Shown here in pieces: positions 44,191 through 54,197 of a stretch of 64,000 nucleotides of DNA (positions within the stretch are counted from its first letter, which is position 1; the number at the start of each line of letters is the position of its first letter). A model generated the notes under the pieces. The model saw only the letters and a list, made by a program, of their open reading frames with translations. It ran no database searches and had not been told where the DNA came from. A program made the translations under genes and the position numbers. This DNA comes from Salegentibacter agarivorans (GTDB lineage Bacteria > Bacteroidota > Bacteroidia > Flavobacteriales > Flavobacteriaceae). The DNA lies in the NCBI RefSeq assembly GCF_900113135.1, contig NZ_FOOH01000010.1, positions 1-64,000 on the forward strand. Reading direction: 5' to 3'.

Positions 44191-45423
44191 GTGGCTTTAG
44201 AATTTTTTAGAGAAAACGAACAAATATTCAATACATTATTCGAGGCGGCTTCAGAAGGCGTTATCGTGGTAAACAGCCAGCAAACAATAGTTACCGCCAA
44301 TCAAGCGGCCTTAATTATGTTTGGTTACAACAAGGAGGAGCTTTTAGGTGAACATCTCAATATTTTAATTCCTGTACGCTATAAATCTAATCACCATCAG
44401 CATTTTGACAGGTTTATGAAAGATAGTGAGAAAAGACAAATGGGTCATGGCAGGGATTTGTTCGGGGTAAAAAAAGATGGGACACAATTTCCGGTAGAAG
44501 CAGGATTAAATCCGTTTCAGGTAGATGGGGAGCGTTTTGTAATGTCTTTAATTGTAGATATTACCATTAGAAAAGAAAATCAGCAGCGCATTAGAGAACT
44601 CAATGCCGAGCTGGAAGACAAAATTAAAATTCGTACCCAGGAACTTAGAAATACGGTGGATGACCTTGAAAAGGAAATCACCAAGCGAAAAGAAGCCGAA
44701 AAACGTATTAAACTTGCACTAAAACAGGAAAAAGAGCTCAATGAGCTAAAGACAAAATTTCTTTCCCTGGTGAGTCACGAATTTAAAACTCCGTTAAGCG
44801 GAATTCTTACTTCGGCTACTTTGGCCGAAAAATATACACAAACCGAACAGCAGGAAAAAAGAACAAAACACCTTACTACCATAAAAAACAAGGTGCATTA
44901 TTTAAATAATATTTTAAATGATTTCCTTTCGTTAGAACGCCTGGAATCTGGGAACGTGAACTATAAATACACAGCTTTTAGCCTAAACAAACTTATTAAC
45001 GAGGTAATTTACAATGCCAATGTGACTTTAAAATATGGGCAGGAGATAGAATATGATAGTGAAATGGGAGATGTAACCCTATATCAGGATGAAAAAATTC
45101 TGGAGCTTATTCTTTCAAATTTAATTGGAAATTCTATTAAATACTCTCCAGAAGATTCCACTATCTATTTTAGAATATTTCCTACTGAAGAAAAAATTAT
45201 CTTTGAGGTGGAAGATGAAGGAATGGGAATTCCGGAGAAAGACCAAAAGCATATTTTTACACGTTATTTTAGGGCCGAAAATGCTTTGCTTAACCAGGGC
45301 ACCGGCATAGGGCTTAATATTGTTAAAGTTCATCTTGAAAATATGGGAGGCAATATTAAATTTGAAAGTATAGAAAATAAAGGCACTAAATTTACTGTAA
45401 CATTACCTAGCCAAAATAGATAA
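44191..45423 (+). CDS. Soluble PAS-domain sensor histidine kinase
   Basis: 410 residues, GTG start, no membrane helix, so a cytosolic sensor. Order: PAS domain about 10-125 (ASEGVIVVNSQQTIVTANQA, FGVKKDGTQFPVE), a coiled-coil signalling helix about 128-180, dimerisation domain with phospho-acceptor His in SLVSHEFKTPLSG (near residue 196), and ATPase domain with N box NLIGNSIKYS and G2 NQGTGIGLNIVKVHL. The PAS has the general look of FixL-type PAS, but the haem-ligand His position holds Arg, so haem binding is not supported. The response regulator fused to a Crp/Fnr module follows after 40 nt and is its obvious partner. The signal is unknown. Confidence 0.9.
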   Translation: MALEFFRENEQIFNTLFEAASEGVIVVNSQQTIVTANQAALIMFGYNKEELLGEHLNILIPVRYKSNHHQHFDRFMKDSEKRQMGHGRDLFGVKKDGTQFPVEAGLNPFQVDGERFVMSLIVDITIRKENQQRIRELNAELEDKIKIRTQELRNTVDDLEKEITKRKEAEKRIKLALKQEKELNELKTKFLSLVSHEFKTPLSGILTSATLAEKYTQTEQQEKRTKHLTTIKNKVHYLNNILNDFLSLERLESGNVNYKYTAFSLNKLINEVIYNANVTLKYGQEIEYDSEMGDVTLYQDEKILELILSNLIGNSIKYSPEDSTIYFRIFPTEEKIIFEVEDEGMGIPEKDQKHIFTRYFRAENALLNQGTGIGLNIVKVHLENMGGNIKFESIENKGTKFTVTLPSQNR

Positions 45424-45463
45424 CCGCTTATGTTACTTGAGCGGACATTGAAAATAATTTAAG

Positions 45464-46495
45464 ATGAAAAAAATACTTTTAATTGAAGACGATGTAACCG
45501 TTAGGGAGAATACTGCAGAATTGCTGGAGCTCTCAAATTATGAAGTAGTAACCGCACCAGACGGGAAGAAGGGTGTAGATAAAGCAAAAGAAGAAATTCC
45601 TGATATAATAGTGTGTGATATCATGATGCCAGAACTGGATGGCTACGATGTACTTACGCGCCTTTCAGAAGATTCAGAAACCAAAGGCATTCCTTTTATT
45701 TTCCTTTCGGCGAAAACCGAACATAAAGATGTAAGAAGAGGAATGGACCTTGGCGCAGACGATTATCTAACCAAGCCTTTTGAAGAAGAAGACCTTTTGA
45801 GCGCTATAGAAAGCAGGCTGGCAAAAGTAGAGATTTTGCAAGCCCAGAAAAAGGATAATAATGGAGAAACCGTTCAAAATCTTTCGGCTTTTCGCGAAAT
45901 GATGAGAAACCGCGAGCAGATTAGTTTTAAGGCTGGTGAAAATATTTATGAAGAAGGAAAATCTTCCCTGCATTTTTATATGGTAGAACGCGGGGTTGTA
46001 AAAGCCCACAAATATGATAGCCGCGGTAAAGAAATGATTACCGAACTTTACAAAGAAGGAGATTTCTTCGGAAATTTAAGCTTTAATAAGAATTCGGCTT
46101 ATGGCGAATATGCCACGGCTTTAGAAGACAGTGTGCTTTACGTGGTTTCTAAAGACGAATTAAGGGAAATCCTTAAGAGCAATAGTAATATTAGTATGGA
46201 ATTGCTCCAGGAAATGGGCGATCATCTTATGGGGGTAAAAGAGCAATTAATGGAAATTGCCTATGCTTCAGTAAGAAGAAAAACAGCCAGAACTATTTTA
46301 CTTTTCGCTCATAAAATTAAGAAAAACCCATTACACAGTATTAGAATTTCGCGGGCAGACCTGGCAGGAGTCGCTGGTATAGCTTCAGAAACGCTAATAA
46401 GAACCCTTTCCGATTTTAAAAAAGAAGGACTTATTGAAATTGAAGGCAGAAATGTGAAGCTTTTAGATGCAGAAAAGCTGGAGGCAATTAGTTAA
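45464..46495 (+). CDS. Response regulator fused to a Crp/Fnr-type DNA-binding protein
   Basis: 343 residues with three modules. The receiver domain (1-120) has Asp9/Asp10, phospho-acceptor Asp52 (VCDIMMPELDG) and Lys104. A cyclic-nucleotide-binding-like beta roll (about 148-235) follows, in which the cAMP-contacting Glu and Arg-Ser are absent (FFGNLSF instead of FGE, then YGEYATALED). Last is a dimer helix and a Crp-type winged HTH (about 265-343) with recognition helix ASETLIRTLSDF. Glu309 and Arg313 match the residues that read TGA/TCA half-sites in Crp and Fnr. There is no Fe-S cysteine cluster. It is therefore likely switched by phosphorylation from the adjacent kinase rather than by cAMP or oxygen directly. 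Three matching DNA dyads lie in front of neighbouring operons. Confidence 0.92.
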   Translation: MKKILLIEDDVTVRENTAELLELSNYEVVTAPDGKKGVDKAKEEIPDIIVCDIMMPELDGYDVLTRLSEDSETKGIPFIFLSAKTEHKDVRRGMDLGADDYLTKPFEEEDLLSAIESRLAKVEILQAQKKDNNGETVQNLSAFREMMRNREQISFKAGENIYEEGKSSLHFYMVERGVVKAHKYDSRGKEMITELYKEGDFFGNLSFNKNSAYGEYATALEDSVLYVVSKDELREILKSNSNISMELLQEMGDHLMGVKEQLMEIAYASVRRKTARTILLFAHKIKKNPLHSIRISRADLAGVAGIASETLIRTLSDFKKEGLIEIEGRNVKLLDAEKLEAIS

Positions 46496-46505
46496 TTTTT
46501 ACAGA

Positions 46506-46550
46506 ACTGACCGGAATCATATTTAGGATTGATCTTTCACGCTACTTTTG
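46506..46550 (+). promoter_or_regulatory. Crp-type dyad plus -7 element upstream of the universal stress gene
   Basis: ACTGA (46506-46510), N6, TCATA (46517-46521), then 21 nt and TACTTTTG (46543-46550). Dyad centre is 29.5 nt before the -7 element, equal to two other promoters nearby. Confidence 0.65.
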
Positions 46551-46579
46551 GCCAAAATTAGTGCTGAAAGGTCAAGCCT

Positions 46580-47326
46580 ATGAATATTTTAATACTTACA
46601 GATTTTTCTCCCCAGGCTTATAATGCTGCACGCTATGCCTTGAATTCAAATTCAGGCTCATCAAAATTTTATGTGCTTCATGCCTCTTCTACCGGCGTGG
46701 CATCAAAAATAGATGAGGCGCTTGTAGACTTTGTTGCCAGGCTTAAAAAAGAACCTGCTGCAACTGGCCATTCATTTTATACTCTTCCTTTTGCCGATAA
46801 CCTTATAAATGCAACCCGAAAGGCAGTAACCGAAAAAAGGATAGACCTAATTGTGATGGGTGCATCTGGAAAAAATACTTCTAATTTCCAGGGTTTAGGT
46901 GGGAATACGTGTAATGTAGTAAAAAAGGTAAAATGCCCTGTATTGGTAGTGCCTAATTGTGAATTTAAACAATGGGAAAGACTTTATCTTCCTATAGATT
47001 TACGATTTCCTGTTCATACTGAAGCTTTACAATTATTGCAAAAGTTGCCCGTTGCTCCTAATGTAAGCCTGGATGTATGGGAATTTAATTTGAATAATTC
47101 TGAAGGACAAATAGAAGATTTTAAACTGCCCAATTATAAACTTAACCGAAAAACGCTCAAAGAAGAATCAGATTTCTTTGGGAAGTTCTGGCCAGAAGCA
47201 AATGTAAAGGCCAATATTATAGTGTTTTTTGCCCGCCAGCTTCATATTACTGAAAAGCTTTTAAACAGGCTTTCGGCTACCGAAACCCGGAAACAAAACC
47301 TTCCGGTGCTTATTCTTCACGGCTAA
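46580..47326 (+). CDS. Universal stress protein (UspA family)
   Basis: 248 residues. The first half (1 to about 130) is a UspA domain starting ILILTDFSPQAYNAARYAL and carrying the ATP-binding loop MGASGKN...GLGGNT, then VKCPVLVVP. The second half is a degenerate repeat of the same fold. Usp proteins accumulate under starvation, respiratory arrest or oxygen limitation. It lies 84 nt after the Crp-type response regulator and has a dyad-controlled promoter of its own. Confidence 0.88.
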   Translation: MNILILTDFSPQAYNAARYALNSNSGSSKFYVLHASSTGVASKIDEALVDFVARLKKEPAATGHSFYTLPFADNLINATRKAVTEKRIDLIVMGASGKNTSNFQGLGGNTCNVVKKVKCPVLVVPNCEFKQWERLYLPIDLRFPVHTEALQLLQKLPVAPNVSLDVWEFNLNNSEGQIEDFKLPNYKLNRKTLKEESDFFGKFWPEANVKANIIVFFARQLHITEKLLNRLSATETRKQNLPVLILHG

Positions 47327-47517
47327 ATTTCTAAAATTTGGTTAAAGTTTTCTGTTTAGCTATTAAAGTTAGCTCTTTAGCTGCGTGCTACTTTGCTAAT
47401 TATAGTAGAAAACCTTATGTTTATGCACGTTCCCAAAATGCAGCTCCTGCTTTTATTTAGAAGGAATGCATAAAATTAAACTTGGGAAGAAGATGATAAC
47501 TTTATATAACGAAAGAA

Positions 47518-48147
47518 ATGGAGATTAAAGAAATTTTTGAAAACAATAAGAACTGGATTCAGGAAAAATTACAAAAAGACGCAAATTACTTTAGCGATCT
47601 GTCTAAAGGCCAAGACCCGGATATTCTTTACATAGGTTGCTCAGATAGTAGGGTTACAGCTGAAGAACTAATGGGAGTAGCGCCAGGTGATGTTTTTGTA
47701 CATAGAAATATTGCTAATATGGTGCCCAATACTGATCTAAGCGCCATGTCTGTAATAGATTATGCGGTTGCCCATCTTGGGGTTAGACACGTAGTTGTAT
47801 GTGGCCATTATTATTGCGGGGGTGTTAAAGCCGCTATGCAATCTCAGGATTTGGGTATTCTAAATCCCTGGTTAAGAAATATTAGGGATGTATACCGTAT
47901 TCACCAAAATGAACTGGATGATATTAAAGACGAAGAAGCACGTTATAAAAGACTTGTTGAATTAAACGTGCAAGAACAGTGTATTAATGTAATAAAAACT
48001 GCAGAAGTACAGAGAGCATTTTTAGATAGAGGGATAACCGTGCACGGTTGGGTTTTCGATATTCATTCTGGTAAGTTAATTGACCTTAAGATCGATTTTT
48101 CAGAAATCCTGAAAGATGTGATGAAAATCTATCATTTAGATAGTTAA
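47518..48147 (+). CDS. can: Beta-class carbonic anhydrase
   Basis: 209 residues, reversible CO2 hydration. Zinc ligands are visible as Cys41 (in YIGCSDSRV), His97 and Cys100 (in VVCGHYYCGGV), with Asp43 and Arg45 forming the catalytic dyad. Length and spacing are normal for the beta class. It supplies bicarbonate for carboxylases. The 191-bp gap in front holds no dyad of the type found at the neighbouring operons and no clear -7 element. Confidence 0.95.
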   Translation: MEIKEIFENNKNWIQEKLQKDANYFSDLSKGQDPDILYIGCSDSRVTAEELMGVAPGDVFVHRNIANMVPNTDLSAMSVIDYAVAHLGVRHVVVCGHYYCGGVKAAMQSQDLGILNPWLRNIRDVYRIHQNELDDIKDEEARYKRLVELNVQEQCINVIKTAEVQRAFLDRGITVHGWVFDIHSGKLIDLKIDFSEILKDVMKIYHLDS

Positions 48148-48164
48148 TAAATACAAACCTTAGA

Positions 48165-48180
48165 TGTAACTCAAGTTACA
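48165..48180. promoter_or_regulatory. 16-bp palindrome, orphan operator-like site
   Basis: TGTAACT, 2 nt, AGTTACA, with another AGTTACA at 48193-48199. It sits between the convergent carbonic anhydrase and haemoglobin genes, where no gene start exists. Confidence 0.4.
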
Positions 48181-48257
48181 GGCTAAAATAATAGTTACAG
48201 CTCTTTCCTTAGGAAAGTTGTTCTGGGTAATTATTTATCGATAAAATAAATTTTAAG

Positions 48258-48386
48258 AGGCTGTCTAGATTGATCTAATTTAGATCTTTTCCGAAGTTTT
48301 AAGATTGTTTTATTTATTTAGGATTAATTTTTAAATAATTCTGAAATCAATTTAAAATAATGATTTAAAATCTTTCTAGACAACCT
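48258..48386. mobile_element. MITE-like element with 18-20 bp terminal inverted repeats
   Basis: A 129-bp non-coding stretch bounded by AGGCTGTCTAGATTGATC (left) and, read inward from the right end, AGGTTGTCTAGAAAGATT. Flanks TTTTAAG (48251-48257) and TTTTATG (48387-48393) look like an imperfect 7-bp target duplication. It abuts the 3' end of the truncated haemoglobin gene, whose stop codon lies in the right flank. Confidence 0.55.
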
Positions 48387-48388
48387 TT

Positions 48389-48781
48389 TTATGCTTTGTT
48401 TTCTCTAGCCTGAAACATCTTTAAATATAAATGTGAAGACATCTTCCTGGCGTTATTTTTTGCCCGGTTGGCGAGTTCACCTTCGTACAATTCGTCTATA
48501 GTTTCAAACCATAAGTTTAGCCAAATCCCAAAATGGTAATTGGAAATCTCCTGGTTGTTTTCCTGGTCTACTTTTACGTGAACCTTTTGAGGATTGCCCT
48601 TGTAGGTTGCTTTAAAAAAGAGATTGCTTTCCCAGAAATCGGTTAATTTCTCGAAATGGGCATCCCAGTCTTTTATTACCTCATTGAAAAAATGACCAAT
48701 TTCAGGATTTTGCCTTACTTTTTTATAAAATCCGGAAACCAGTAAAAAAACATCTTCCCGGGTTTTAATATCATTTTTCAT
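48389..48781 (-). CDS. Group III truncated haemoglobin
   Basis: 130 residues with the 2-on-2 globin pattern: Tyr19 (B10 position, VSGFYKKV) and proximal His83 in NYHFGIWLNLWFETIDE, the WLxLWF...TIDE wording being typical of group III. These proteins bind O2 or NO; physiological roles in NO or low-oxygen metabolism are proposed. The gene lies 9 nt downstream of a small membrane protein gene that is preceded by a Crp-type dyad, so both should share that control. Confidence 0.92.
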   Translation of the reverse strand: MKNDIKTREDVFLLVSGFYKKVRQNPEIGHFFNEVIKDWDAHFEKLTDFWESNLFFKATYKGNPQKVHVKVDQENNQEISNYHFGIWLNLWFETIDELYEGELANRAKNNARKMSSHLYLKMFQARENKA

Positions 48782-48790
48782 ACAGTGGTG

Positions 48791-49072
48791 CTAGAATATA
48801 TTTATAAGGATAAAGATAGAGGATATTGCAAGGCTAAGCAAAAGTGCATTAAATACTATTTTAGATTTAAACTGCGCTAAAATCACGGTATTGAAGCCCA
48901 TACAAACTATAACTACAATAAAAAGCTGAAGCATATCTATAAATGTATGTCCGTTCATTAAAATTAGCATTGCAGCCACAGATCCTAAACAGCTGGATGC
49001 GATAATACCAATTGCTGAATATCCCATACTCATTTCTTCAAAATCGGCCAGCAAAGTTTTGTAAAGTTTCAT
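48791..49072 (-). CDS. Small three-helix membrane protein, unknown function
   Basis: 93 residues with hydrophobic segments at about 17-38, 46-66 and 71-92, and a short soluble N-terminus (MKLYKTLLADFEEM). I do not recognise the family. It is the first gene of a two-gene unit with the truncated haemoglobin (9-nt gap) and has the best-conserved dyad of the three found in the region, TTATGA-N6-TCATAA at 49124-49141. A role linked to respiration or NO/O2 sensing is only suggested by this company. Confidence 0.8.
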   Translation of the reverse strand: MKLYKTLLADFEEMSMGYSAIGIIASSCLGSVAAMLILMNGHTFIDMLQLFIVVIVCMGFNTVILAQFKSKIVFNALLLSLAISSIFILINIF

Positions 49073-49095
49073 AGTTTTTAATTTTAAATGTGAGG

Positions 49096-49141
49096 TAAAA
49101 TTAAGGTTGAAGCTGCTGGAATCTTATGAGCATAATCATAA
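49096..49141 (-). promoter_or_regulatory. Crp-type dyad plus -7 element of the membrane protein-haemoglobin operon
   Basis: TTATGA (49124-49129), N6, TCATAA (49136-49141), perfect 6-bp arms. On the minus strand TAATTTTA (49103-49096), 7/8 match to TAnnTTTG. Centre-to-box distance 29.5 nt. Confidence 0.65.
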
Positions 49142-49146
49142 TTGAA

Positions 49147-49184
49147 TTAAAAAAGCCTGGAAAAATTGAATTTCTCCAGGCTTT
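49147..49184 (-). terminator. Terminator of the CoA-transferase gene
   Basis: Perfect 10-bp stem AAAGCCTGGA/TCCAGGCTTT (49152-49161 with 49175-49184), followed on the minus strand by T residues. Confidence 0.85.
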
Positions 49185-49203
49185 AAAAATATTTTAAGTG
49201 CTT

Positions 49204-50481
49204 CTATCTAAATTGATTATGTGATTCTTTCTCTAATTGCTCCCTATGGTCTGGATGCGCTATAGAAATAAGTTCTTTAGCTCTTTGTTTCAGGTTTTTT
49301 CCATAGAGATTTACAACGCCATATTCTGTAGCAATATAATGCACGTGTGCCCGGGTTGTGGTTACGCCGGCGCCTTCTTTTAGAAAAGGTACAATCTTGG
49401 AAATACCGTTTTTGGTGATAGATGGCATTGCAATAATAGGTTTTCCACCTTCAGAAAGTGCTGCTCCTCTTATAAAATCCATTTGCCCGCCAACGCCAGA
49501 GAATTGATATTTCCCAATAGTATCGGCACAAACCTGGCCGGTAAGATCTATTTCTATAGCCGAATTTATAGCGGTTACTTTAGGGTTTTGTCTAATTATA
49601 GCCGTATCGTTGGTATAAGCCGCTTCTTTAAAATGCACAATAGGATTATCATCAATAAAATCGTATAAATCAGGTGAACCTATGGCAAAACAGGTCACCA
49701 GTTTTCCGGTTTTTATTTCCTTACTTGCCCCGGTAATTACTCCCGATTTTACCAATGGCAAAATTCCGTCAGAAAACATTTCAGTATGGATTCCCAGGTT
49801 TTTGTGGTTTTGAAGATTATTTAAAACTACATTGGGAATACCCCCAATTCCCATTTGGAGGGTAGCGCCATCATCAATTAGTTCGGCTACATGTTTACCA
49901 ATTTGTTTTTCAATTCCGGTAGGAGCAGTAACACTGGTAGCAAAAATAGGCTGATTCACTTCTATGGCAGCCTCAATCTGGCTGCTGTGAATAATTCCGT
50001 CCCCGTGGGTTCTTGGAACATTTGGGTTTATTTGCGCAATTACTTTTTTAGCCTTTTGAATAGCGGGTAACGTGATATCTACTGAAACTCCCAGCGAACA
50101 ATATCCGTGTTTATCGGGTGGGGAAACCTGGATAAAAGCAACATCTAAAGGCAAGATATCCCTGCGGAAAAGGTTATGAATCTCACTTAGAAATATGGGA
50201 ATATAGGTTCCTTTATTAGAATTGACCGCATTTCTAACGTTGCCGGCAACAAAACACGTGTTGATGCTAAAAGAACCGGCGTAAGGTTCTTCGGTGTATT
50301 TTGCTTTTCCCTCGGTATGAATTTGTATAATTTCAACATCGGTCAATTCATTATAACGATCGCATAATGCATCAATTAGGGTTACCGGCGTCATTGCGGC
50401 ACCCTGAATAAAAATGCGGTCACCAGATTTTACTTTGGCAACCGCATCCTGAGCTGATAATATTTTTAGATGATTCAGCAT
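49204..50481 (-). CDS. Acetyl-CoA hydrolase/transferase family protein (4-hydroxybutyrate CoA-transferase-like)
   Basis: 425 residues of the class I CoA-transferase fold. N-terminal half has the SGDRIFIQGAAMTPVTLIDAL region and PPDKHGYCSLGVSVD. The C-terminal half has LQMGIGGIPNVVL and the active-site Glu in INSAIEIDLTGQV, which forms the glutamyl-CoA intermediate. Members exchange CoA between acetate, propionate, butyrate or 4-hydroxybutyrate and acetyl-CoA. It starts 2 nt after a YceI-like gene. Acetate/acyl-CoA interconversion fits overflow or oxygen-limited metabolism, but the substrate is not settled. Confidence 0.88.
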   Translation of the reverse strand: MLNHLKILSAQDAVAKVKSGDRIFIQGAAMTPVTLIDALCDRYNELTDVEIIQIHTEGKAKYTEEPYAGSFSINTCFVAGNVRNAVNSNKGTYIPIFLSEIHNLFRRDILPLDVAFIQVSPPDKHGYCSLGVSVDITLPAIQKAKKVIAQINPNVPRTHGDGIIHSSQIEAAIEVNQPIFATSVTAPTGIEKQIGKHVAELIDDGATLQMGIGGIPNVVLNNLQNHKNLGIHTEMFSDGILPLVKSGVITGASKEIKTGKLVTCFAIGSPDLYDFIDDNPIVHFKEAAYTNDTAIIRQNPKVTAINSAIEIDLTGQVCADTIGKYQFSGVGGQMDFIRGAALSEGGKPIIAMPSITKNGISKIVPFLKEGAGVTTTRAHVHYIATEYGVVNLYGKNLKQRAKELISIAHPDHREQLEKESHNQFR

Positions 50482-50482
50482 T

Positions 50483-51061
50483 TTAGGTTTTAACGTTTAA
50501 ATTGAAATTAATTTCTATTACTTCATCCAGGACGATGAGCCCAAAGATTTTACTGGGTGCTTCCAGGTTAAAATCTTTAATATTAAGCTTCAATTTCCCA
50601 TCAAAACATAGTTGTTTATCTCTTGTAATCTCTACCGGAAACTTATAATCTTTATTAACCCCTGCAATGGTGAAGCCTATGGTTACTATAGAATTTCCTT
50701 CCTCGCTCATATCTATTTTCTTTAGTTTCAAGAGGATTTCAGGATGTTCTTTAGATTTTAGAAGTTCGTGAAAGTCTTTATTTATTTTTCGGTTGCCACA
50801 ATCAAAATTCACATTTTCCAGGGGTAAAACACTATTCTTAAAATGAAGAATTTCACCATTCTCTGTATAATGCACTTTAAAAGTTTCATTTTTAAACCTA
50901 AGGGTATTAAAATCACATTCAAAATCGTTGATATTGGTTGTGCCTTTAATGCTTAAGTGACTATCTGGAAGAATATCAATTTTTCTGGTTTCCAAACCGG
51001 TTTGCGCTACTCCCGTAATAGTAAAAAATAATATAAAAAGTAAAGGAATATAAGTTTTCAT
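50483..51061 (-). CDS. YceI-like secreted protein
   Basis: 192 residues with a signal peptide (1-20, ending TGVAQ). Mature part is a lipocalin-like beta barrel of the YceI family, which binds polyisoprenoid or amphipathic ligands: LSIKGTTNINDFECDF (about 36-51) matches the YceI opening, and FTIAGVNKDYKFPVEI the central strands. It is more divergent than the second YceI gene at 52475-53062. Located in the periplasm. Immediately upstream of the CoA-transferase gene (2-nt gap). No Crp-type dyad at the expected place before its weak -7 box (TATCTTTA, 51094-51087). Confidence 0.82.
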   Translation of the reverse strand: MKTYIPLLFILFFTITGVAQTGLETRKIDILPDSHLSIKGTTNINDFECDFNTLRFKNETFKVHYTENGEILHFKNSVLPLENVNFDCGNRKINKDFHELLKSKEHPEILLKLKKIDMSEEGNSIVTIGFTIAGVNKDYKFPVEITRDKQLCFDGKLKLNIKDFNLEAPSKIFGLIVLDEVIEINFNLNVKT

Positions 51062-51135
51062 CCTGGTTTAATTTAGGGCATTTCTATAAAGATAAGTAAT
51101 TGAATTCTGGTTAAGAAATGGTTGGCAACAGGAGA

Positions 51136-51178
51136 TAAAAAGCCCCGGTGAATCTCTTGTGAGATAGCAACCGGGGCT
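51136..51178 (-). terminator. Terminator of the YceI-porin operon
   Basis: AGCCCCGGT (51141-51149) with ACCGGGGCT (51170-51178), an inner ATCTC/GAGAT stem, and a T tract on the minus strand. Confidence 0.9.
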
Positions 51179-51189
51179 CAACATTCAAC

Positions 51190-52449
51190 TTAAAAACTAA
51201 TCGCTGCTTCTAGCATAAGTCCGTTGAAATTACCTTCGTGCAGAATAGTTCCAGGGTTAAATCCATTGTAGTCCTGAGTTACATATTCTACTTTCGCAAG
51301 GATGTTCTTGGTCATAAACCAACCTGCACCTAATTGGTATCTGGTAATATCTATGTCGTTACCGCCCATTTCAGTTCCTTCTACAGTATTGTATCGTCCA
51401 CCTATATAGAAGTTTTCATTTTGACCGAATCTGTAGATCAATTCAGCTGCAATTTGGTCAAAATCTCTGTCGCTTGTTTCAGCATCTGCTTTTCCGCTCG
51501 CTCTTTCATATGTTCCGAAGAATTCTAATCCTTTGTATTTTACAAAAGGGTTGAACATAAAGGCAGTTAGCTCATTTCTAAGACCAGGGTTATAACGTCC
51601 AGATCTAAAGTTTCCTGCAGAAGAAGCATCTGGGTTCTCCATTACAAGGTAGTATCTAGAACCTGCACGGTCTGCACTGTATAAATATGCGTTAGAACTT
51701 TTACCGGTGTGATAAACAGATCCTGTTAATCTTACTCTTAGATCTTCAGCTACATAATCGTCGTATCCTAATTTTGCAAGGAAAGAAGCTCCAGTTGTTC
51801 CGGGGTTATTTACGGCCTGGTTTAATTTACCGTTTGTAAGTCCTACCATTCCAATAAAACCGTTGTCTCTGTAGTATACTTCAGCACCAACTTCGGTAGT
51901 GAAGCCATCCATTATATAGTTTCCAACAAATGGGTTGTGGATTGCCTGTGCGTTATCGGTTCTTCTAAAGTGAGCATCACCATAGTTGTTTTCCATATGA
52001 CCAATTTTCACAGTTACCTTGTCCATTAAGTCTTCCATAAAACCTTCTCTTACAAAGTTTAATTTATCAATCTGGATGTAACCACCTTTTACATAAGGTT
52101 CTGGGTGGTGCCGAGAAGATAGGTATGTTCTAAGGTGCATTCTAACTCCATCGTATAGAGCAACATCCAGGTCAAGGTTGGCAGTAGCCAGGTTAAAGTT
52201 GTCTCCAATTTCAATTAGTGGTTCACCAGAGTTTTCGTGATCTATAGCCTGGAATTGAATAGTAGAAGCACCACCAACTCTTACTTTTACACCGTCAAAA
52301 TCTGTAATGGTATCCTTAGGAGCCTCAAAAACGTTGATTCCTCTTTTATCTGGAGCTCTATAGTTATCCAGGTCTCTGTCCTGTGCCTGCATTTGCAAGC
52401 CAAAAAGAACGAATGCAATTAAGCCGAAGTATTTGATTGAATTTTTCAT
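51190..52449 (-). CDS. Outer-membrane porin
   Basis: 419 residues: signal peptide 1-22 (LFGLQMQAQ), an acidic N-terminal stretch, then a 16-18-strand barrel typical of phosphate-selective porin O/P-like or general porins of Bacteroidota (GGASTIQFQAIDHEN, QIAAELIYRFGQNENFYIGGRYN, LAKVEYVTQDY), ending in the aromatic C-terminal strand. Pore selectivity cannot be read from sequence. It is 25 nt downstream of the YceI gene, so is controlled by the same dyad promoter at 53087-53131. Confidence 0.82.
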   Translation of the reverse strand: MKNSIKYFGLIAFVLFGLQMQAQDRDLDNYRAPDKRGINVFEAPKDTITDFDGVKVRVGGASTIQFQAIDHENSGEPLIEIGDNFNLATANLDLDVALYDGVRMHLRTYLSSRHHPEPYVKGGYIQIDKLNFVREGFMEDLMDKVTVKIGHMENNYGDAHFRRTDNAQAIHNPFVGNYIMDGFTTEVGAEVYYRDNGFIGMVGLTNGKLNQAVNNPGTTGASFLAKLGYDDYVAEDLRVRLTGSVYHTGKSSNAYLYSADRAGSRYYLVMENPDASSAGNFRSGRYNPGLRNELTAFMFNPFVKYKGLEFFGTYERASGKADAETSDRDFDQIAAELIYRFGQNENFYIGGRYNTVEGTEMGGNDIDITRYQLGAGWFMTKNILAKVEYVTQDYNGFNPGTILHEGNFNGLMLEAAISF

Positions 52450-52474
52450 TGTAATAATTTTTAAAATTGAATAG

Positions 52475-53062
52475 TTATTTAGAAAATGTAGATTTGAATT
52501 TAATAGTTACTTCCTCGCCGGTGGTAATTGTTCCAAACATAGCAGTAGGAGGGTCAATCTTGTAATTGGTCATATTAAGGCTTTCTTCACCATTTATTTC
52601 CAATTTGTTTCCGTTAAGCTTAGCAGTGAATTCTACCGGTACTTGTTTAGAAACTCCCGAAATTTTTAAAGTCGCAAGGCCATTTACTTTGTAAGAGTTG
52701 CTGCCGTTGGCTTCAATCTTCTTAACCTCGTCTAACTTAAATTCGATGTTTTTATATTTATCGGTATTAAGTGCTTTGTAAGCATTTTTGTCCATTCCGC
52801 CTTTTCCACTTTCCAGGCTTTCAGCTGGAATACTTACCTGAAGTTTTGAGATTCCTGTTAATTTCCCGTCTTCAGTGGTAATGGTTGCACCTCCTTGCTT
52901 TGAGGTTGCCTTCATTTCCCAATCGTGGATGTTAGAGGTTCCTTCAACAATAATTTCAGAAGAATTATCCATTTTGAAATTTTGCCCGAACATGTTGCCT
53001 GCGGTTAGCAACATAAAAAATACACCTGTAAGAATTACTTGATATGATTTTAAAACTTTCAT
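52475..53062 (-). CDS. YceI family protein (polyisoprenoid-binding-like)
   Basis: 195 residues with a signal peptide (1-26). Mature protein contains the YceI marks SEIIVEGTSNIHDWEMKATS (about 35-54), VNGLATLKISGVSKQVPVEF and MTNYKIDPPTAMFGTI. YceI proteins are small periplasmic beta barrels that bind isoprenoid or quinone-like lipids; they are often stress- or redox-induced. First gene of a two-gene operon with the porin, downstream of a Crp-type dyad. Confidence 0.92.
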   Translation of the reverse strand: MKVLKSYQVILTGVFFMLLTAGNMFGQNFKMDNSSEIIVEGTSNIHDWEMKATSKQGGATITTEDGKLTGISKLQVSIPAESLESGKGGMDKNAYKALNTDKYKNIEFKLDEVKKIEANGSNSYKVNGLATLKISGVSKQVPVEFTAKLNGNKLEINGEESLNMTNYKIDPPTAMFGTITTGEEVTIKFKSTFSK

Positions 53063-53086
53063 GATATTAGGTTTTTAAGTTTGGTA

Positions 53087-53131
53087 CAAAGTTGGGGCAG
53101 AAATGCAGCAGAATCTATGACGAGAGTCAGT
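53087..53131 (-). promoter_or_regulatory. Crp-type dyad plus -7 element of the YceI-porin operon
   Basis: On the plus strand TATGA (53116-53120), N6, TCAGT (53127-53131). Minus-strand CAACTTTG (53094-53087) is a 7/8 match to TAnnTTTG. Centre-to-box distance 29.5 nt; reads ACTGA-N6-TCATA on the minus strand, as before the universal stress gene. Confidence 0.65.
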
Positions 53132-53318: not shown

Positions 53319-54197
53319 TTAGTAATAAAGCTCGTCGGTTTTTAGGTTTAAAAACCGGGAGGTAGCAAAAAATGTACTTAGCCAGGTAATAAGGATTCCC
53401 ATAACGAAAACGCCTATAAACAAAGCGGCGAGTAATTTTACATCTGAAGTTAATGAGAGTTGTGGGAAGCTATTGTTAAGATAATAGAGTGCCCCGGCCA
53501 TACCAATAAGTGCGATTATGGCGCCAATTATTCCCAGTTTTACACTTTGCCAAATAAATGGCCTGCGAATAAAGCCTTTTGTAGCGCCTACCATTTGCAT
53601 GGTCTTAATAATAAATCGTTTAGAATATACCGAAAGTCTAATAGAACTGTTTATAAGCAATACCGCGATAAAGGTGAAAACCCCGCTGGCAATAAGCACC
53701 CAGAAACTAATTTTCTTTACATTTTCGTTTAAAAGTGCAATAAGAGGTTTATCATAAATTACTTCATCTACAAAATTTTTAGAAGTAAGATCGGCTGCTA
53801 TTTCATCTACCTGTTCGCCAGAGACATAATCGGCGTTCATATAAACATCTATAGAATTCTGCAGAGGATTATAGCCTAAAAACTCCATAAAATCCTCACC
53901 TATTTCCTTGCTGTGGGCTTCGGCGGCCTCTTCTTTAGAAACATAGGTGGTAGATTTTGTATAATCTGCCATTGCCAGGCTTTTCTTGAGTTGTTCTATC
54001 TCAACTTCTTTGGCGGTATCTTTTAAATATACGGTGAGCGCAATTTGCTCTTTAAAATGATCGGCTACTTTTTTGGTGTTTAAAACCAGTAAACCTAACA
54101 TTCCCAATAAAAAAAGTACTAAAGCAATACTAATCACTACCGAAAAATAAGACGAAATTAATCGACGTCTTTGGTACTTTTCAAAAGATGTGCTCAT
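53319..54197 (-). CDS. ftsX: Cell division protein FtsX
   Basis: 292 residues, four membrane helices (about 18-40, 163-185, 220-242, 260-282) with an extracytoplasmic domain after the first helix (about 45-155) and the FtsX C-terminal permease domain (MQMVGATKGFIRRPFIWQS). It pairs with FtsE to control peptidoglycan hydrolases at the septum. ftsE is not in the window, which is usual for Bacteroidota. Confidence 0.95.
   Translation of the reverse strand: MSTSFEKYQRRRLISSYFSVVISIALVLFLLGMLGLLVLNTKKVADHFKEQIALTVYLKDTAKEVEIEQLKKSLAMADYTKSTTYVSKEEAAEAHSKEIGEDFMEFLGYNPLQNSIDVYMNADYVSGEQVDEIAADLTSKNFVDEVIYDKPLIALLNENVKKISFWVLIASGVFTFIAVLLINSSIRLSVYSKRFIIKTMQMVGATKGFIRRPFIWQSVKLGIIGAIIALIGMAGALYYLNNSFPQLSLTSDVKLLAALFIGVFVMGILITWLSTFFATSRFLNLKTDELYY

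Follow-up and report, generated by a model that had tools for sequence, protein, structure and literature searches.

A receiver-Crp regulator, a neighbouring FixL-like kinase and dyads at a fixed distance from the -7 element: a probable low-oxygen switch of flavobacteria

Which promoters does a response regulator with a Crp-type DNA-binding part control in the flavobacterium Salegentibacter agarivorans, and to what signal would it respond? The question is raised by a stretch of 64,000 nt (contig NZ_FOOH01000010.1, positions 1 to 64,000; hereafter the window), which is contig C26 of a 4.3-Mb Salegentibacter genome. The window carries a gene for a PAS-HisKA-HATPase histidine kinase of 410 aa with a FixL-like PAS domain (44191..45423, + strand) and, directly downstream, a gene for a 343-aa response regulator (45464..46495, +) that consists of a receiver domain (Asp52), a cNMP-type beta-roll and a Crp-type helix-turn-helix (HTH) domain (Glu309, Arg313); we refer to this protein as receiver-Crp. 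An earlier note, made from the sequence alone, had proposed that it activates a local stress or low-oxygen gene set through TGA-N6-TCA dyads at three nearby promoters. Here, the observation of spaced dyads was confirmed as real and strong, and the interpretation was partly supported: it is right in outline, and it is wrong on the local scope, on a single regulator and on the inclusion of a CoA-transferase. We conclude that the pair is probably a two-gene oxygen-type switch, in which the FixL-like kinase acts on receiver-Crp and receiver-Crp acts on microoxic class II promoters across the genome.

The three dyads can be read directly in the sequence as candidate operators. ACTGA-N6-TCATA (46506..46521, +) precedes the gene for a universal stress protein (Usp; 46580..47326, +; Pfam Usp). 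TTATGA-N6-TCATAA (49124..49141, -) precedes an operon of a truncated haemoglobin gene and the gene for a 93-aa predicted membrane protein (48791..49072, -), which matches no family over the cut-off and for which both the name MEM and the word membrane are our own naming. ACTGA-N6-TCATA, read on the minus strand (53116..53131, -), precedes an operon of a YceI-family gene, YceI-2 (52475..53062, -; Pfam), and a porin-like gene. TAnnTTTG is the Bacteroidota -7 element, and such elements follow the dyads as TACTTTTG (46543..46550, +), TAATTTTA (49096..49103, -) and CAACTTTG (53087..53094, -). The claimed distance of 29.5 nt from the dyad centre to the first base of the element holds for all three, and the composite TGA-N6-TCAT-N23-AnnTTT[A/G] matches at 46508-46550 (+), 49138-49096 (-) and 53129-53087 (-). 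While TGA-N6-TCA alone occurs in the window at chance level (15 found vs 15.6 expected), the dyad with [T/C]AnnTTT[A/G] at the fixed spacing was found three times, compared with a mean of 0.03 and a maximum of 1 in 200 first-order resampled sequences. Judged by where the -7 element stands, the dyad centre would lie at about -41.5/-42 from the transcription start. The dyad occupies the place of a -33 element. Instead of a conserved TTTG, this region has a T-run 3' of the right half-site, which may be a -33-like promoter element rather than part of the operator. In the window, the last base of the MEM -7 element is A (TAnnTTTA), as it is by eye in most loci, and that of the Usp promoters is mostly G.

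Conservation was examined in 80 named loci, which are the best 80 of at least 573 relatives (contigs from one genome per species) and include close relatives. In all of the 80 but L062 and L063, a Usp match lies 3' of the regulator gene, and every one of these 78 regulator-Usp intergenic regions contains TGA-N6-TCA; in L071, two such dyads lie close together before one Usp gene. With the window included, the T after TCA, the TA at +29.5 and the TT at +33.5 are present in 79/79 regions, and the exact TAnnTTTG stands at +29.5 in 64 of them. Among 34 representatives that are less than 60% identical outside the motif, TGA, TCAT, TA and TT stay invariant, and most spacer columns hold less than 0.3 bit. 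Furthermore, the 150 nt before the MEM gene contain TGA-N6-TCA in 26/26 loci and those before YceI-2 in 12/12, each time with at least five of the six -7 bases at the same spacing. The dyads are conserved before all three sets of orthologous genes; a lack of such conservation would have refuted the reading of the note.

Genes used as controls had no TGA-N6-TCA upstream: an acetyl-CoA hydrolase/transferase (CoA-transferase; 49204-50481, -; 0/14), YceI-1 (50483-51061, -; Pfam YceI; 0/12), a carbonic anhydrase (47518-48147, +; 0/4) and an ABC-type gene, FtsX by eye (53319-54197; 0/5). The dyad occurs upstream of the haemoglobin start in 1/13 loci and upstream of the porin-like gene in 5/12, where by eye it falls within the last part of the YceI-2 gene ahead of it. 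The CoA-transferase, which the note had counted in the regulon, is ruled out as a member, since the unit that it forms with YceI-1 lacks the dyad and is parted from the haemoglobin operon by a terminator-like stem of 15 bp (49152..49184, -) in the interval between the CoA-transferase gene and the MEM promoter.

The spacing proved to be fixed rather than random, so that the second refuting condition of the note, random spacing genome-wide, does not hold either. In the 80 loci, TGA-N6-TCA combined with TAnnTTT[A/G] gave 267 pairs at a spacing of 23, of which 195 remain without the regulator-Usp dyads, and the 29 other spacings from 10 to 39 gave 0-12 pairs each (122 in total, mean about 4.2), an enrichment of about 60-fold. 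Moreover, 251/267 of the spacing-23 pairs lie outside genes and upstream of an open reading frame (ORF), compared with 37/89 for 20 other spacings pooled. In the genome to which the window belongs, the pattern with free spacing gave 123 matches; among the 100 listed, 20 have a spacing of 23, and the other 20 spacings average 4. The fixed pattern, with the first -7 base left free, gave 29 matches there vs 3 for the reversed pattern, and about three of the 29 are probably due to chance.

These 29 sites lie across the genome, so the regulon is not local as had been thought. Twenty-five have a downstream ORF, three lie inside genes without one, and one more has none. Genes over their hidden Markov model (HMM) cut-offs among the targets are HemN, CcoS with CcoNO behind it, a Sec-dependent NosZ, RIC, formate-tetrahydrofolate ligase (Fhs), a hemerythrin, HPF and NhaA. 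Targets under the cut-off are a NarK-family transporter and a heavy-metal P-type ATPase beside ccoS, which is probably CcoI; Usp genes outside the window, an SDR, NadA and an MlaE-type permease were named by eye. The 80 loci hold 283 sites with a downstream ORF and 8 more without one. By target, the 283 comprise Usp (106), CcoS (27), MEM (26), YceI-2 (11), HPF (7), RIC, HemN and CcoI (5 each), CcoNO (2), another target of the own genome (2) and others (87), and cco or hemN genes lie inside the locus in 46/80. The largest of the other targets is a family of about 135 aa found in 27/80 loci (e.g. L092:7976-8380), whose member in the own genome (L175:10309-10719) has no Pfam match over the cut-off. 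With cbb3 oxidase genes, hemN, the haemoglobin and others among the targets, the low-oxygen gene set that the note had suggested was borne out.

The regulator itself has the predicted architecture. Pfam matched PF00027 (6e-19) and PF13545 (3.6e-13) in addition to the receiver domain, and D52, S82, K104, Glu309 and Arg313 are invariant in 81/81 sequences with the window included, so that a receiver fused to a Crp-type HTH with Glu and Arg in the recognition helix is confirmed. The acidic pair D9, D10 is present in 80/81 (one gap). Together with the phospho-Asp, Ser, Lys and adjacent kinase, it gives the protein the features of a two-component response regulator, and the beta-roll, HTH_Crp and fold matches are those of the Crp/Fnr superfamily. 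An AlphaFold model (pLDDT 79.4, pTM 0.55) consists of the receiver, a linker helix, the beta-roll, a long helix and the HTH. The 50 Foldseek matches listed for this model were all Crp-type chains, including CRP, FNR and FixK2, with low TM-scores of up to 0.32 over the query. In sequence searches of the PDB, each of the 60 matches listed out of 340 covers the receiver side or the Crp part and none the whole protein; likewise, NCBIfam gave no name for the fusion, the 25 families listed out of 101 matched being single-part matches under their cut-offs. In six loci (L065, L067, L087, L096, L106, L117), a second Crp-type match without a receiver lies about 1 kb after the regulator gene, just past Usp, and is 29-35% identical to the Crp part of the regulator.

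The kinase lies directly upstream of the regulator in 79/79 loci where this is visible, which bears out the adjacent PAS kinase of the note. The best PDB match of its residues 12-125 is the haem PAS domain of FixL (1d06, E 4.7e-19), and the next ones are mostly other FixL chains and DosP chains. In the alignment, His68 and Arg88 (20 residues apart) stand opposite a His and an Arg of FixL, which serve there as haem ligand and distal Arg. Among 80 aligned kinases, His68 is present in 79 (the remaining one has a gap) and Arg88 in 71. The genome has 32 other PAS_9 matches; in a rough alignment of 29 of these distant domains to the kinase PAS, none placed a His at the position of His68 and two an Arg at that of Arg88. 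The PAS domain probably binds haem through His68.

Two classes of site were distinguished among the dyads. The class A model was built from 63 distinct Usp sites of relatives and has the consensus [A/T]CTGA-N5-R-TCAT[A/T]TT. Of eight RIC loci, the five with a promoter that fits the composite (four Salinimicrobium, one other) served for the class B model, which has the consensus TTATGA-N5-C-TCATAA. The T-run could account for part of the difference, but not for that at positions -2, -1 and 8. In the own genome, the Usp, cco, NhaA, HPF, narK, Fhs and YceI-porin sites score as class A, the RIC, hemerythrin, nos cytochrome, NadA-side, 77-aa gene and MEM-haemoglobin sites as class B, and the nosZ, hemN and SDR sites lie near the border. 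Of the window dyads, the Usp dyad is thus a class A and the MEM dyad a class B candidate operator; the YceI-2 dyad is mainly class A, favoured over B by 10.7 bits, and the YceI-2 sites of relatives are class A in 12/12, by 0.5 to 21.9 bits, two of them by just 0.5 bit. The MEM site is class B in the window and in the 5/5 named Salegentibacter loci (L039-L042, L044), and class A in the 21/21 other loci, which is an apparent operator switch in Salegentibacter.

Which protein reads which class was approached through the other Crp-type proteins. The own genome has five HTH_Crp_2 matches, three of which have the Glu and Arg of the recognition helix: receiver-Crp, a protein that we call RR2 (C20:440982-441989) and a 198-aa nos-linked Crp (C55:6432-7028) encoded in the same 20-kb stretch as nosZ. 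RR2 has no Pfam receiver match, and by eye it lacks the phospho-Asp and the acidic pair. In a co-occurrence sample of 149 genomes of the family, with counts uncorrected for phylogeny or genome size, class A sites averaged 2.97 per genome with receiver-Crp vs 0.65 without it (4.6 times, p about 2e-12), and 64/74 genomes with receiver-Crp have at least one. Class B sites were found in 9/33 genomes with a nos-type Crp vs 4/116 without (p 2e-4), and their association with receiver-Crp was not significant in this sample (9/74 vs 4/75, p 0.16). In three of the nine genomes with both a nos-type Crp and class B sites (G310, G313, G326), the class B site lies at most 10 nt from the nos-type Crp gene, which is divergent. 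The haemoglobin site belongs to the second class, which tracks the nos-linked Crp rather than receiver-Crp. One regulator for all three window promoters, as originally proposed, is unlikely because three Crp-fold proteins share the Glu/Arg pair, and we reject it on the site classes together with the co-occurrence.

The observed sites, geometry, conservation, domain content and co-occurrence fit a mechanism modelled on what is known of FixL, of two-component systems and of class II activation by Crp. At low oxygen, the kinase with its putative haem PAS domain would phosphorylate Asp52 of the neighbouring receiver-Crp, which would hold the roles of FixJ (receiver) and FixK (Crp-type activator) in one chain. 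Activated receiver-Crp would bind class A sites 29.5 nt before the Bacteroidota -7 element, at about -41.5, and activate RNA polymerase in the class II manner. Its targets would be Usp genes, the cbb3 oxidase and its assembly genes, hemN, HPF, the NhaA antiporter, narK and, here, the YceI-porin operon. Class B sites of the same geometry, before RIC, the hemerythrin, nos genes and, in Salegentibacter, the MEM-haemoglobin operon, would most likely be read by the separate nos-linked Crp. This points to the fused receiver-Crp as the protein on which much of the low-oxygen response of flavobacteria depends. A wider proposal, which we put forward tentatively, is that Flavobacteriia and related Bacteroidia use as their main microoxic switch a FixL-like haem kinase that phosphorylates a Crp-fold activator directly, a collapsed FixL-FixJ-FixK system, with the nos-linked Crp acting on promoters of identical geometry; as flanking bases alone would distinguish the two site classes, operons such as that of the haemoglobin would have moved between both regulators by point changes in the dyad.

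How far do other explanations account for the same data? Chance dyads beside unrelated promoters would explain why TGA-N6-TCA alone is no more frequent in the window than expected, but for the set this is refuted by the spacing enrichment, the conservation before orthologues and the excess over the reversed pattern, and its probability is negligible. It is also conceivable, though we consider it unlikely, that the sites are a general flavobacterial Crp/Fnr operator read mainly by a CxxCI Fnr-like protein, RR2 and the nos-linked Crp; receiver-Crp would then bind them alongside several other proteins or, apart from its own Usp promoter, play a minor part. A number of observations weigh against a switch centred on receiver-Crp and are to be considered here, beginning with the uncorrected counts of the co-occurrence sample, in which 26/75 genomes without receiver-Crp have at least one class A site and class A weakly tracks the nos-type Crp too (2.6 vs 1.6, p 0.02). 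In the phylum sample, composite sites were found in 11/11 family genomes without receiver-Crp (5-17 each, mean 8.1; reversed pattern 0-3, mean 1.2), compared with a mean of 19.6 in 16 family genomes with it. Within genus g2 of this sample the two groups differ little (means of 12 in 4 genomes with receiver-Crp and 8.4 in 10 without), and class-level genomes outside the family showed no useful correlation (0-15 sites with it, 0-9 without). All three genomes examined among the 11 (G071, G220, G232) and both examined among those with receiver-Crp (G117, G148) encode an N-terminal CxxCI Crp with a near-identical recognition helix (ATESCIR or ATESAIR vs ATETLIR/ASETLIR), and RR2 and the nos-linked Crp also carry the Glu/Arg pair. 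RR2 itself lies amid five composite sites (G000:C20:439859-445725, L175); four of these have ORFs downstream, which by eye are an operon of three Usp genes, ORFs of 228 aa and 136 aa, and an ABC operon of the Mla type. In addition, class B rests on few sites, and the His and Arg of a FixL-like PAS domain are no proof of haem. The spaced composite was found within 350 nt upstream of the kinase gene in 0/76 loci, and autoregulation of the kinase operon by this element was rejected; plain TGA-N6-TCA occurs upstream of the kinase in 28/79 stretches. Sharing of operators has a precedent in rhizobia, where FixK and FnrN recognise common anaeroboxes according to the available part of PMC7888657. Because genomes without the fusion have such sites too, several Crp/Fnr proteins probably share this operator type. 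Against a general operator as the whole explanation stand the 4.6 times higher class A counts with receiver-Crp and the site adjoining the regulator gene, kept in 79/79. Furthermore, none of the five own-genome HTH_Crp_2 matches has an N-terminal CxxCI, yet the class A regulon is large; one match (C32:170225) has a CxxC elsewhere than at the N-terminus and lacks the Glu.

The same wiring could also serve another signal, such as nitric oxide, redox state, nutrients or energy status, or a general stress or stationary-phase response. Usp, HPF and formate-tetrahydrofolate ligase, all among the targets, are known elsewhere from stationary or energy-limited states. However, the PAS part has its closest PDB relatives in FixL and, after it, in DosP chains, and linkage to and sites at cbb3 and hemN genes point to oxygen as the signal; this alternative seems improbable. 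We therefore retain the two-gene oxygen-type switch as the probable reading. For the way in which flavobacteria turn to cbb3 respiration, to the reduction of nitrous oxide and to low-oxygen survival, it would provide a regulator pair, a base-exact promoter layout and a target list. Because this list contains a Sec-dependent nosZ, control of a nitrous oxide-consuming enzyme could become predictable from sequence.

Full-length receiver-Crp, called at an E-value of at most 1e-35, was found in 16/27 genomes of the family (the own included), 1/3 further genomes of the order, 21/31 further genomes of the class and 0/186 further genomes of the phylum, in which just receiver parts matched. Of the 21 class-level loci, all but G176 were inspected. 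A kinase match adjoins the regulator in 17 of these 20, and in four (L253, L261, L262, L264) the composite, with a looser -7 pattern, follows the regulator gene directly.

For the remaining genes of the region, Pfam confirmed the kinase, regulator, Usp, YceI and CoA-transferase identities that the note had given. The truncated haemoglobin (48389..48781, -) has no Pfam match and was identified as group III through PDB 2ig3 (E 5.2e-12). The identification of the outer-membrane porin-like protein encoded 3' of YceI-2 (51190..52449, -) held in part: Porin_O_P matched weakly, below the cut-off (E 0.0082). Between the porin-like and YceI-1 genes, a G+C-rich inverted repeat followed by a T-run was seen by eye at 51142-51178; it is absent from the output of the stem scan, probably owing to its long loop.

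How does this system compare with known ones? CRP, the cAMP receptor, recognises TGTGA half-sites and has a phosphate-binding Arg motif in its cAMP pocket. Receiver-Crp shares the beta-roll, long helix and HTH with it; in contrast, its half-site is TGA, and the phosphate-binding Arg is not evident, with no Arg among the three commonest residues in columns 203-219. FNR of Escherichia coli and Aliivibrio combines the Crp fold with Glu and Arg in the recognition helix, half-sites of the TGA type and an anaerobic gene set, all of which recur here; it acts from class II positions, as is predicted for the dyads, and A. fischeri FNR is among the Foldseek matches. Unlike FNR, receiver-Crp lacks the N-terminal cysteine cluster (1-3 Cys per sequence, and in 58/81 just C51, in the receiver), and it comes with a receiver domain and with a kinase as partner. 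In the same bacterial order, MalR-like CRP/FNR homologues have been predicted in Flavobacteriales; they differ in their predicted carbon sensing, and the part of PMC8510549 available to us mentions no receiver and cautions that assigning such motifs by computation is difficult. The available part of PMC1183210 holds nothing on a receiver-Crp fusion. Among the papers listed from open-licence full-text literature, screened by title and start of abstract and with most subscription papers outside its coverage, there was none on a receiver-Crp oxygen system or on this operator in Bacteroidota and no account of the flavobacterial or Bacteroidota switch to cbb3, nitrous oxide reduction or low-oxygen survival.

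The closest likeness is to the FixL-FixJ-FixK and hFixL-FxkR-FixK systems of rhizobia, which, as far as described in the available part of PMC7888657, also join a FixL-like PAS kinase, a response regulator and a Crp/Fnr-type activator with cbb3 and assembly genes as targets, in a scheme with FnrN and shared anaeroboxes. The present system differs in its phylum, in its promoter with the -7 element TAnnTTTG and in targets that include Usp, HPF and nos genes. Here, the receiver and the Crp activator are one protein encoded in one open frame of 343 aa, and the transcriptional step from FixJ or FxkR to fixK, in which a separate regulator switches on fixK, is absent; if our reading is true, the FixJ and FixK steps are merged in a single protein.

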